A stretch of DNA of 64,000 nucleotides, taken from positions 1 through 64,000 of the forward strand of contig NZ_MDJZ01000015.1 of assembly GCF_002151125.1 (NCBI RefSeq), read 5' to 3'. This DNA comes from Clavibacter michiganensis. Its GTDB lineage: Bacteria > Actinomycetota > Actinomycetes > Actinomycetales > Microbacteriaceae. The notes beneath the pieces were generated by a model. It was not told the origin of the DNA. It ran no database searches and saw only the letters and a program-made list of their open reading frames with translations. Each line of letters begins with the position of its first letter. The stretch's first letter is position 1. Below, piece by piece: positions 3,699 to 9,466 of this stretch. Made by a program: the position numbers and the translations under genes.

Positions 3699-6768
<3,070 letters not shown>

Positions 6769-6770
6769 GG

Positions 6771-6971
6771 TCATCTCCAGTCGGTGGGGTCCTCGCGCAC
6801 CAGCCCCTCATCGATGGGGCGGCGGGCGACAGTGGTGACGGTCTGCGCGCTGAGGCCCGTGCGCTCGGCGGTCTCGGAGCGGCTGCCGCACTCGGCCGCG
6901 CGGCGGACCGCGTCGAGCACCACGGTGCGGTCGTAGCCGCCGATGGCGGGCAGGTCGGTGCCGCGTCGCAT
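6771..6971 (-). CDS. HTH-only remnant of a ROK-family repressor
   Basis: A 66-residue protein matching only the N-terminal winged-helix part of ROK transcription factors: GYDRTVVLDAVRRAAECGSR followed by SETAERTGLSAQTVTTVARRPIDEGLVRE. Full ROK regulators are about 400 residues with a sugar-binding kinase-like domain, absent here. An excellent AGGAGG lies 5 bases before the ATG, and the stop overlaps or abuts the mannosidase start, so the short frame is probably translated and coupled to that gene. It is either a degraded repressor or a minimal sugar-independent DNA-binding protein. Confidence 0.7.
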   Translation of the reverse strand: MRRGTDLPAIGGYDRTVVLDAVRRAAECGSRSETAERTGLSAQTVTTVARRPIDEGLVREDPTDWR

Positions 6972-7142
6972 GGGCACCTCCTCGCGCCGGGCCACGCCGT
7001 CCGGAGCGGGCCTCCTCGCAGTATCCCCGATGCCCGGCCTCGGGATCGCACCGGACCGCCGGTCCGCCCATCCCTTACCGCTGCCCTGGGGAGACGACGA
7101 CACGCCCGGCCGGGCCGACCGGGGTCGGAGGAGGGTGGACGC

Positions 7143-8279
7143 ATGACCGATCTGCTCGCCGCCGCCCACGAAGCGGTCCGCATCCTCCCGTCGCCCCTGC
7201 CCGCCGCGCGCGGCCCTCTCAGCGCGGCCCTCCTCGCCGACCTGGCGGGGGGATCCGGCTCGCCGGCCGCGCCCGGATCCGTCGGCAGCTCCGCCGACGC
7301 CCTCGCCGTCGCCTCGGGCCCCGACCTCGCCGCGCTCGCCGAGGACGCGCTCGCCGCGACGGACGACGTGGTCCGCGACGACGACGTGCAGCTCGCCCTC
7401 TTCTGCCTCTACGAGCTGCACCACGCCGGCCTCGCCGGCGTGGACGACGACCGCGAGTGGGACCCGCGGCTGATCGCCGTGCGCGGGATCCTCGAGCGCG
7501 CGTTCGAGGCCGCCCTGCGCGACCGCGTCGCCGTGCCCGAGCGCCCCGAGCCGACCTCCGCGGGCGTCGCCGCCGCGCTCTTCGCGCTCACCTCGGCCGA
7601 CTCCGGCCCGTCCCTCTCGCGGTTCGTCGCGCGGAAGGCCACCGTCGAGCAGCTCCGCGAGTTCCTCGTGCAGCGGTCGATCTACACGCTGGGCGAGGCC
7701 GACCCGCACTCCTGGGCGATCCCGCGCCTCCGCGGACGCGCCAAGGCCGCGATGGTGGAGATCCAGGCCGACGAGTACGGCGGCGGCCGCCCCGAGCGCG
7801 TGCACGCGACGATCTTCGGCGCGACCCTGCGCGGCGTCGGCCTCGACGACCGCTACGGCTCCTACCTCGACGACGTGCCCGCCATCACGCTCGCGTCCTC
7901 GAACGCCATGTCGCTCTTCGGCCTGCACCGGCGGCTCCGCGGGGCGATCGTCGGCCACCTCGCCGCCTTCGAGATGACCTCGAGCGTCCCCAGCCGCCTC
8001 TACGCGAGCGGGATCCGGCGCCTCGGCTTCGGTGACGACGTCGCCTGGTACTACGACGAGCACGTGGAGGCCGACGCGGTGCACGAGCAGATCGCGGCGC
8101 ACGACCTCGCGGGCGGCCTCGTCGAGTCGGAGCCCGAGCTGCTCGACGACGTGCTGTTCGGCGCGGCCGCCTGCCTCGAGGTCGAGGGCTGGGTCGGCGC
8201 GCACGTGCTCTCCAGCTGGCAGGCCGGCCGCTCGTCGCTCCGGGACGGCTCCGTGGCCGCGGTCGTGGCCGCCGCGTGA
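7143..8279 (+). CDS. Iron-containing redox enzyme, haem-oxygenase-like diiron fold
   Basis: A 378-residue protein of the haem-oxygenase-like diiron oxidase type. Candidate metal ligands occur in family order: LYELHHAGL (Glu and His, about residues 90-94), ADEYGGGRPERVHATIF (Glu and His, about 210-226), AAFEMTSSVPSRLY, and YYDEHVEADAVHEQ (about 303-316) with Asp, His, Glu and His. Known relatives oxidise small carboxylates, amino acids or fatty acids; the substrate here is unknown. The N-terminal third is alanine-rich and poorly conserved-looking. Its TGA is shared with the GTG start of the CDGSH gene, implying translational coupling. Confidence 0.8.
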   Translation: MTDLLAAAHEAVRILPSPLPAARGPLSAALLADLAGGSGSPAAPGSVGSSADALAVASGPDLAALAEDALAATDDVVRDDDVQLALFCLYELHHAGLAGVDDDREWDPRLIAVRGILERAFEAALRDRVAVPERPEPTSAGVAAALFALTSADSGPSLSRFVARKATVEQLREFLVQRSIYTLGEADPHSWAIPRLRGRAKAAMVEIQADEYGGGRPERVHATIFGATLRGVGLDDRYGSYLDDVPAITLASSNAMSLFGLHRRLRGAIVGHLAAFEMTSSVPSRLYASGIRRLGFGDDVAWYYDEHVEADAVHEQIAAHDLAGGLVESEPELLDDVLFGAAACLEVEGWVGAHVLSSWQAGRSSLRDGSVAAVVAAA

Positions 8280-8548
8280 GCGCGCTGCCCGACGACGACG
8301 CGACGCCGCCTGCCGCGGCCGCCCGTCCCTCCGCGGCCGAGCCGGCGCGGATCATCGCCTACCCCGACGGGCCGCTGCTCGTCCGCGGCGACTTCGAGAT
8401 CGTCGACCCCGAGGGACGCCCGATCCCGCGCACCCGCAGCACCGTCGCGCTCTGCCGCTGCGGCGTCTCGTCGATCAAGCCCTACTGCGACGGCACGCAC
8501 CGGCTGGTCGGCTTCCGCACGGATCCGCCCGCGCCGACCGGCGCGTAG
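8276..8548 (+). CDS. CDGSH iron-sulfur domain protein
   Basis: A 90-residue protein whose C-terminal half carries a complete CDGSH-type [2Fe-2S] motif, CRCGVSSIKPYCDGTH, with three cysteines and one histidine as ligands. Such proteins shuttle electrons or clusters. The GTG start overlaps the upstream diiron gene by four bases (GTGA), so the two products are made together; an electron-transfer partnership is a reasonable inference. The first 25 residues are alanine/proline-rich and probably disordered. Confidence 0.9.
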   Translation: MSALPDDDATPPAAAARPSAAEPARIIAYPDGPLLVRGDFEIVDPEGRPIPRTRSTVALCRCGVSSIKPYCDGTHRLVGFRTDPPAPTGA

Positions 8549-8557
8549 CCCGCGGCG

Positions 8558-9466
8558 TCAGAGCTGGGCGCCGGGCACCGCGAACGTGTCGCACGCCGTC
8601 GGCCCGCCCGCGCGTCCCGCCTCGAACCAGCGCTGGCGCTGCTCGGCGGATCCGTGGGTCCAGGTGTGCGGGTCGACCTCGCCGCCGCTCGCCGCCTGGA
8701 TCCGGTCGTCGCCCACGGCCGCCGCCGCGTCGAGCGCGTCCCGCACCTCCGCGCCGCTGACCGGCTCGAGGAAGGCCGTGCCCGAGTCGTCGCGGATCTC
8801 CGACGCGGCCCCGACCCACGCGCCCGCGTAGCAGTCGGCCTGCACCTCGAGCCGGACGGAGTCGGAGTCCGGGCCGGTGCCGCTCCTGTCCGCCCGGTCG
8901 AACGCGCCGGAGAGCTGCTGGATGTGATGGCCCCACTCGTGGCCGACGACGTACATCTGCGCGAGCGGCCCGCCCGAGGCGCCGAAGCGGGTGCGGAGCT
9001 CGTCGAAGAAGGTCGTGTCGACGAAGAGGCGCTGGTCCGGCGGGCAGTAGAAGGGGCCGGTCGCGCTGGACGCCGCGCCGCAGCCGGTGCTCGTGGCGGC
9101 GTCGAAGAGCGAGAAGCCGGGGGAGACGTAGTCGGCGATGCCCACCTCGGCCGCCGCGGTCGTCCAGTAGGTGTCGAGCGAGTCGGCCGCCCCCGCCATC
9201 CGGCACTCGACGCTCGCGTTCGCCTCCGCGCCGGTCGTGCAGCCCTCGATCGCCTCGTCCTGCTCCTGCGAGGTCCCGCCGGCCGTGCCGCCCGACCCGT
9301 CGACCAGCTGCGAGAGGTCGACGCCCGTGAACTGCTGCACGAGGATCACCGCGACCACCACGAGGAGCCCGCCGCCGCCGGCCGCGATGCCGGTCGTGCG
9401 CCCCCGGCCGCCGCGCCGCCGGGTGACCTTGCTGCTGTCGATCCGGGCGTCGTCGTCGAAGGTCAT
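8558..9466 (-). CDS. Neutral zinc metallopeptidase (YpfJ-like)
   Basis: A 302-residue membrane-anchored protein. An arginine-rich cytoplasmic start (TRRRGGRGR) precedes one transmembrane helix (about residues 27-46), then a linker and the extracellular peptidase domain with the zinc motif HEWGHH (about 176) and a downstream EVQADCYAGAW that supplies the third-ligand region of this family. Four or more cysteines suggest disulfides outside the cell. The start is supported by TACGTT six bases upstream of the ATG. It is convergent with the CDGSH gene with a 9-bp gap. Confidence 0.9.
   Translation of the reverse strand: MTFDDDARIDSSKVTRRRGGRGRTTGIAAGGGGLLVVVAVILVQQFTGVDLSQLVDGSGGTAGGTSQEQDEAIEGCTTGAEANASVECRMAGAADSLDTYWTTAAAEVGIADYVSPGFSLFDAATSTGCGAASSATGPFYCPPDQRLFVDTTFFDELRTRFGASGGPLAQMYVVGHEWGHHIQQLSGAFDRADRSGTGPDSDSVRLEVQADCYAGAWVGAASEIRDDSGTAFLEPVSGAEVRDALDAAAAVGDDRIQAASGGEVDPHTWTHGSAEQRQRWFEAGRAGGPTACDTFAVPGAQL

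Follow-up and report, generated by a model that had tools for sequence, protein, structure and literature searches.

Linkage of a haem-oxygenase-like diiron protein gene to a type 4-like CDGSH protein gene in Clavibacter and other Actinomycetota

A gene for a haem-oxygenase-like diiron protein (HDO) and a gene for a small CDGSH iron-sulfur protein overlap in Clavibacter michiganensis and stand together in many other actinobacteria. Observed here are both genes, their ligand residues, the predicted fold of the HDO, and the kept linkage and co-occurrence of the pair; the linkage is strong and well supported. The best reading of this evidence, to which we give about an even chance, is a diiron enzyme of the N-oxygenase type, served by a dedicated [2Fe-2S] protein that donates one electron at a time. 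The partnership of HDO and CDGSH protein joins two known domains and is widely kept; the mechanism by which the two would act together is one that we infer.

Diiron oxygenases need re-reduction. How HDOs are re-reduced in cells is mostly open, and a second, chemically different partner would make electron supply testable with two small proteins. If the wider proposal made below is true, the CDGSH protein would represent a new class of HDO redox partner, and type 4 CDGSH proteins of bacteria would have in the HDO their first known enzyme to serve, across much of the phylum. The HDO family is described as having more than 10,000 proteins and about a dozen tested members (PMC13108848). No description of an HDO-CDGSH pair was found in the open-access literature, a scope that makes this absence weak evidence. 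Judged by titles, and for PMC11854999 by a figure legend, none of the papers listed on CDGSH and diiron proteins concerns HDOs, and the available excerpts of the CDGSH phylogeny literature, PMC3174974 included, mention neither an operon nor an oxygenase.

The gene pair in Clavibacter and its two proteins

In the window, by which we mean the whole 64,000-nucleotide stretch analysed, the HDO gene occupies positions 7143 to 8279 of the plus strand, starts with ATG and encodes 378 amino acids; by reading, GGAGGAGGG at 7127 to 7135 (+), 7 nt 5' of the ATG, is its likely ribosome-binding site. The CDGSH gene (8276 to 8548, +) starts with GTG and encodes 90 amino acids, and the GTGA at 8276 to 8279 (+) holds both the HDO stop and the CDGSH start. 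The neighbours on both sides lie on the minus strand, namely a GH38 alpha-mannosidase gene (3742 to 6774) and, on the same side, a 66-amino-acid HTH-like open reading frame (6771 to 6971) before the HDO gene, and a gene for a YpfJ-type zinc metallopeptidase (8558 to 9466) beyond the CDGSH gene, so the unit consists of the HDO and CDGSH genes only. Open reading frames, Pfam matches and opposite-strand neighbours thus agree with an earlier note on this DNA, which had described an HDO and a CDGSH protein that share a GTGA overlap, with nothing else in the unit. Consensus scans gave neither a sigma-70-like promoter nor an intrinsic terminator for the unit. The 66-amino-acid frame has a weak winged-HTH/MarR-like match, below Pfam cut-offs, and precedes the GH38 gene head-on, overlapping its start; our guess is that it is an N-terminal fragment of a larger sugar-type repressor.

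Profile searches of the whole genome (E ≤ 0.001) returned one match each for PF14518 and PF09360, the HDO and the CDGSH protein of the window. A four-base NTGA overlap is found in 18 of 18 Clavibacter loci, this one included (17 GTGA, 1 ATGA). Synonymous difference exceeded non-synonymous difference for both genes in six of six Clavibacter comparisons, across which pN/pS of the HDO was 0.12 to 0.24; the window HDO is 95% identical to that of Clavibacter lycopersici.

The HDO matches Pfam Haem_oxygenas_2 (PF14518; E = 1.2e-60, residues 172 to 348), its sole Pfam match at E ≤ 0.001, and at the same threshold neither it nor the CDGSH protein matches an NCBIfam profile. Its AlphaFold model, made from a 50-row alignment (mean pLDDT 91.3, pTM 0.89), has a haem-oxygenase-like helical fold whose best solved match is HrmI (9nh9; Z 34.1, 2.6 Å, 318 residues, 19% identity). 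SznF (Z 29.2), RohS (28.7) and FlcD (25.8) come next, CADD, BesC, PolF and UndA score about 15 to 19 and haem oxygenases about 14, and the Foldseek ranking agrees with this order. The low rank of haem oxygenases, and PF14518 as the sole Pfam match, speak against a true haem oxygenase. The N-oxygenases HrmI, SznF and RohS are the top solved matches by sequence as well as by fold. The earlier note's expectation of C-H or C-N chemistry can therefore be narrowed to the N-oxygenase type, the type of the nearest solved relatives, although a shared fold does not show the reaction.

Residues E185, E211, H221, E277, H307, D311 and H314 of the HDO align with E189, E215, H225, E281, H311, D315 and H318 of SznF, which we take to be the metal ligands of that enzyme. 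All seven putative ligand positions are invariant across the 50 alignment rows, and the model that carries them is confident and has the expected fold. Missing metal-ligand residues, which the earlier note had named as a refutation, were thus not what the alignment showed. By sequence alignment alone, the HDO fits a set of three His and three (or four) carboxylates; with E211 as an additional ligand the site would be 3H/4C, like that of SznF. HrmI has the same DE motif as the window HDO yet is described as 3H/3C (PMC13108848), so E211 counts as a candidate ligand.

In the CDGSH protein, Pfam zf-CDGSH (PF09360; E = 4.4e-19) matches one stretch only, residues 31 to 76. The CDGSH motif itself, CRCGVSSIKPYCDGTH, fits C-X-C-X2-[ST]-X3-P-X-C-D-G-[SAT]-H, is encoded at 8453 to 8500 (+) and forms residues 60 to 75 of 90, with C60, C62, C71 and H75 as putative [2Fe-2S] ligands and Arg76 directly after the ligand His. 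Judged from its residues, the protein would be of type 4, a class that calls for a single motif, for Lys or Arg next to the ligand His and for strand-forming sequence ahead of the motif; type 4 CDGSH proteins are described as carrying a single motif near the C-terminus and an Arg after the ligand His (PMC3174974). Among solved structures the protein comes closest to RsCISD, a type 4 CISD from Ralstonia (3tbm; E = 9.7e-12). The pattern C-X-C-X2-[ST]-X3-P-X-C-X2-[SAT]-H is kept in 118 of 118 linked CDGSH homologues examined, and the linked homologues of Streptomycetaceae have CDTSH in place of CDGSH.

Linkage and arrangement across the Actinomycetota

Among 60 relatives, which range from the same genus to the same order and include the genome itself, 29 have both genes, 1 has a CDGSH gene only (G057, a weaker match), none has an HDO gene only and 30 have neither; counted by genus, HDO occurs in 11 and CDGSH in 12 of 41 genera. 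The CDGSH gene lies within 3 kb of the HDO gene in 29 of 29 HDO-bearing relatives, 18 of which belong to one genus. A scan of named genomes gave at least 581 HDO relatives, of which the best 80, mostly Micrococcales, were kept, and the CDGSH gene is within 3 kb in 77 of these 80 closest loci. As for the three unlinked loci, the CDGSH gene is about 8.7 kb downstream on the same strand in L063, and the sequence ends near the HDO gene in L050 and L074; the L074 genome has a partial CDGSH match on another stretch, and a search of the L050 genome gave no CDGSH match.

Across a sample of 246 Actinomycetota genomes (cut-offs of E ≤ 1e-10 for HDO and E ≤ 0.001 for CDGSH), HDO was found in 41 and the CDGSH domain in 83, and the two are linked in 27 of the 41 HDO-bearing genomes. 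The earlier note had asked whether the pair is conserved outside close relatives, and the counts at all three depths answer that it is. Within the class of Clavibacter, every HDO-bearing genome of the sample has a linked CDGSH gene (15/15) and no HDO-lacking genome has any (0/6). Linkage is seen in 12 of 26 HDO-bearing genomes of other classes; the 14 unlinked ones, among which we count G071, in whose genome no CDGSH was found, comprise 9 with no CDGSH match, 4 with a match elsewhere in the genome and 1 with a weak match about 7 kb away. Those 9 genomes mean that a CDGSH partner is not universal and that an HDO can manage without one there. The earlier note's oxidase with a dedicated electron carrier therefore stands in part: linkage, co-occurrence and family knowledge speak for such a role, whereas the deeper lineages with an HDO and no CDGSH speak against it as a general rule.

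No HDO-CDGSH fusion was found among 193 HDO-matching open reading frames. On a FastTree phylogeny of 142 rows, the CDGSH label has to change at least 9 times, where shuffled labels give a mean of 19.9. Of the 21 rows with the label 'none', 3 are remote outgroup rows, 2 are contig-end loci and 1 has a CDGSH gene about 9 kb away, so the result speaks of clustering only.

The placement of the CDGSH gene varies, for it may lie directly after the HDO gene, after a glycosyltransferase gene, before the HDO gene, facing it or divergent from it; of the 54 named loci with a directly following CDGSH gene, 38 show a four-base NTGA overlap. Plasmids carry the pair as well. On Curtobacterium plasmid pW21 the two genes have a four-base overlap; on a Streptomyces plasmid the CDGSH gene comes first, again with a four-base overlap, with a methyltransferase gene upstream; on Kitasatospora and Streptomyces plasmids HDO and CDGSH genes converge with overlapping 3' ends, next to a HemK2/MTQ2 methyltransferase gene; and a Nonomuraea replicon has its CDGSH gene some 1.1 kb past the HDO gene. 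A Gordonia plasmid has a fragmentary HDO gene without CDGSH, and the remote HDOs of Sphingobium, Komagataeibacter and Nostoc plasmids (3 of 38 matched plasmid records) have no CDGSH gene nearby. On the Sphingobium plasmid, pKN1 (L151, 3884 to 5118), the remote HDO gene overlaps a second gene, between two Crp/Fnr regulators. The second gene encodes a small protein whose match to response-regulator receivers is weak (E = 1.1e-5) and does not reach the Pfam cut-off; this receiver-like protein is possibly another kind of HDO partner.

These arrangements bear on whether the two genes are adjacent by descent only, without joint function. Such a reading could draw on the single genus that supplies most HDO-bearing relatives and on the named loci being the closest relatives only. 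It is largely contradicted already, and we hold it to be highly improbable: the pair occurs in at least four orders or orientations, its surroundings change, it is found on plasmids, and within one genus (g24) one genome has both genes (G058) and another neither (G040). That the two genes stay together in differing arrangements is the strongest evidence here for a joint function.

Neighbouring genes, substrate and stress

Neighbours were counted at 120 loci, the 80 named and 40 from the phylum sample; clusters of neighbours were also made, and these rest on a crude GC-position gene filter. A glycosyltransferase gene, with weak matches to Pfam GT2/GT21 and NCBIfam HpnI, is present at 40 of the 120 (30/80 named, 10/40 phylum). 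Four of these phylum loci (L156, L182, L185 and L191) lack a linked CDGSH gene, so the tie of HDO to glycosyltransferase may be as old as its tie to CDGSH. A methyltransferase that passes the NCBIfam HemK2/MTQ2 cut-off is found at 10 of the 120, all of them among the 40 phylum loci and none among the 80 named, and also at L030 and on three Streptomycetaceae plasmids. Neither gene adjoins the pair in Clavibacter; a search of the Clavibacter genome itself, run without a positive control, gave no glycosyltransferase match, and the methyltransferase matches there are weaker and unlinked (best E = 1.7e-15). A third gene as the key to the substrate was set aside, since neither candidate has a linked copy in this genome.

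On the Kitasatospora plasmid (L034, 3743 to 5777), genes for a YbdK-type carboxylate-amine ligase and a dimethylargininase stand directly before the HDO gene. The ligase occurs at 7 of the 120 loci. Dimethylargininase was considered as a substrate clue, SznF acting on methylarginine, and was rejected at 0 of 120; the flavin reductase of the Kitasatospora locus likewise occurs at 0 of 120, and no reductase gene accompanies the pair. In the window the neighbours allow no guess at a substrate, as the earlier note had said, and the glycosyltransferase, methyltransferase and stress-type genes of relatives do not fix one either. At one locus of another kind (L156, in G292), two divergent HDO genes lie about 1.1 kb apart, one of them followed by a glycosyltransferase gene, with a methyltransferase-like gene between them and no CDGSH gene at the locus.

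The boldest functional rival casts the pair as a stress system for the reduction of H2O2 or O2, like rubrerythrin with rubredoxin: the CDGSH protein would supply electrons and the diiron HDO would reduce the oxidant, without an organic substrate. It was prompted by DtpC, an HDO of Acinetobacter baumannii whose part in keeping peroxide low in dried cells is described as redundant with that of catalase (PMC13232832), and by stress-type neighbours at a minority of the 120 loci: SigB/F/G at 8, DUF4383 at 11, DUF4235 at 8, SRPBCC at 7, holin-X at 6, BrkB at 6, and Ku with LigD polymerase at 3, raw counts that come partly from one genus. SigF-type promoter patterns point the same way, a strict one at 4 of 117 loci against 0.3% of control windows and a loose one at 22 of 117 against 9.6%, and are suggestive only because the control windows were taken at random, coding DNA included. 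We think a peroxide-reducing role quite unlikely, as the recurrent glycosyltransferase and methyltransferase genes better suit a biosynthetic role and the nearest solved relatives of the HDO are substrate oxygenases.

Two recurring contexts may be recorded separately. In seven Arthrobacter and Pseudarthrobacter loci (L084, L092, L097, L099, L107, L110 and L117), the pair sits in a same-strand block made up of a 'heme-degrading domain' protein, DUF4383, HDO and DUF4235, in most cases with the glycosyltransferase. In other Actinomycetota classes (L158, L160 and L161), an HDO gene without CDGSH adjoins the Ku and LigD genes of non-homologous end joining.

Proposed electron supply and comparison with known systems

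The persistence of the pair in many actinobacteria points to the small protein as a helper of the enzyme, and we propose that the two form a two-component oxygenase. The HDO would bind two irons through three His and three or four carboxylates, activate O2 and oxidise a small substrate, most likely at nitrogen, as HrmI, SznF and RohS do. The CDGSH protein is probably dimeric, with a [2Fe-2S] cluster in each subunit; it would take up single electrons, with reduced flavin or a flavin reductase as their probable source, and hand them to the ferric diiron site for repeated turnover of the HDO. Through the gene overlap the two proteins would be made in a steady ratio, and in many relatives the GT2/GT21-like glycosyltransferase or the HemK2-type methyltransferase may modify the same product or a precursor. 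For the pair itself, we infer the metal content, electron transfer, N-oxygenation, substrate and product. A wider proposal, put forward tentatively, is that type 4 CDGSH proteins are the dedicated one-electron HDO partners of an Actinomycetota family of two-component diiron oxygenases, which would make an N-oxygenated metabolite for use under stress or in dormancy, in many cases with a sugar or methyl group added.

Linkage, co-occurrence and family knowledge point to the CDGSH protein as the electron donor of the HDO, and we favour this role because of the MboAB precedent, the need of HDOs for re-reduction and the electron transfer of mitoNEET. MitoNEET can pass electrons from FMNH2 to O2 or quinone (PMC9490426), and MboAB, described in 2026, is perhaps the first characterised dedicated pair of HDO and redox partner, in which the partner enables multiple turnovers (PMC13185094). 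Against a protein partner stands the statement of a 2026 review that the HDOs studied so far need no protein effector (PMC13108848). On the same side are the 14 of 41 HDO-bearing genomes of the phylum sample that lack a linked CDGSH gene, the want of fusions among the HDO-matching frames and the result of the flavin reductase search at the 120 loci.

The main rival gives the CDGSH protein another task, as a donor of iron or clusters, or a repair factor, that loads or restores a labile diiron site in the HDO. The linkage evidence fits this equally well, and no result obtained here tells it from the electron-donor reading; the diiron site is described as labile in many HDOs (PMC13108848), and NEET proteins are tied to iron and Fe-S handling and to cluster lability (PMC6006223). 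No gene for assembly or iron handling recurs among the largest neighbour clusters, as far as the crude gene filter defines them, and we regard a loading or repair role as unlikely.

HrmI, the N-oxygenase of the hormaomycin pathway that takes a Lys side chain to a nitro group, is the nearest solved fold over nearly the whole HDO chain and has the DE-x-G-x-G...H and H-x3-D-x2-H segments in common with it. It differs in the low identity given above, and the available excerpts of the review (PMC13108848) mention no CDGSH partner for it. SznF, the streptozotocin N-oxygenase, is alike in that all seven putative HDO ligands align, and differs at about 20% identity to the window HDO. DtpC can be likened by description only, as an HDO linked to oxidative stress; its gene is in an operon with the catalase gene katE, and the excerpts of PMC13232832 available to us make no mention of CDGSH. 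On the side of the small protein, RsCISD and other type 4 CDGSH proteins likewise have one motif close to the C-terminus, with Arg next to the ligand His. The available parts of PMC3174974 name no enzyme as their partner, whereas the CDGSH protein of the window is tied to an HDO. A parallel in gene arrangement is found in MboA and MboB of mangotoxin biosynthesis, where an HDO likewise has an adjoining gene for a dedicated [2Fe-2S] partner (PMC13185094). MboB, however, is an NAD(P)H-using flavin/[2Fe-2S] reductase (PMC13185094), whereas the partner here has 90 amino acids and no reductase domain; MboA, for its part, is described as 3H/3C. With PF09360 as the only domain in those 90 residues, the pair belongs to another kind than MboAB, although it may act in a similar way.
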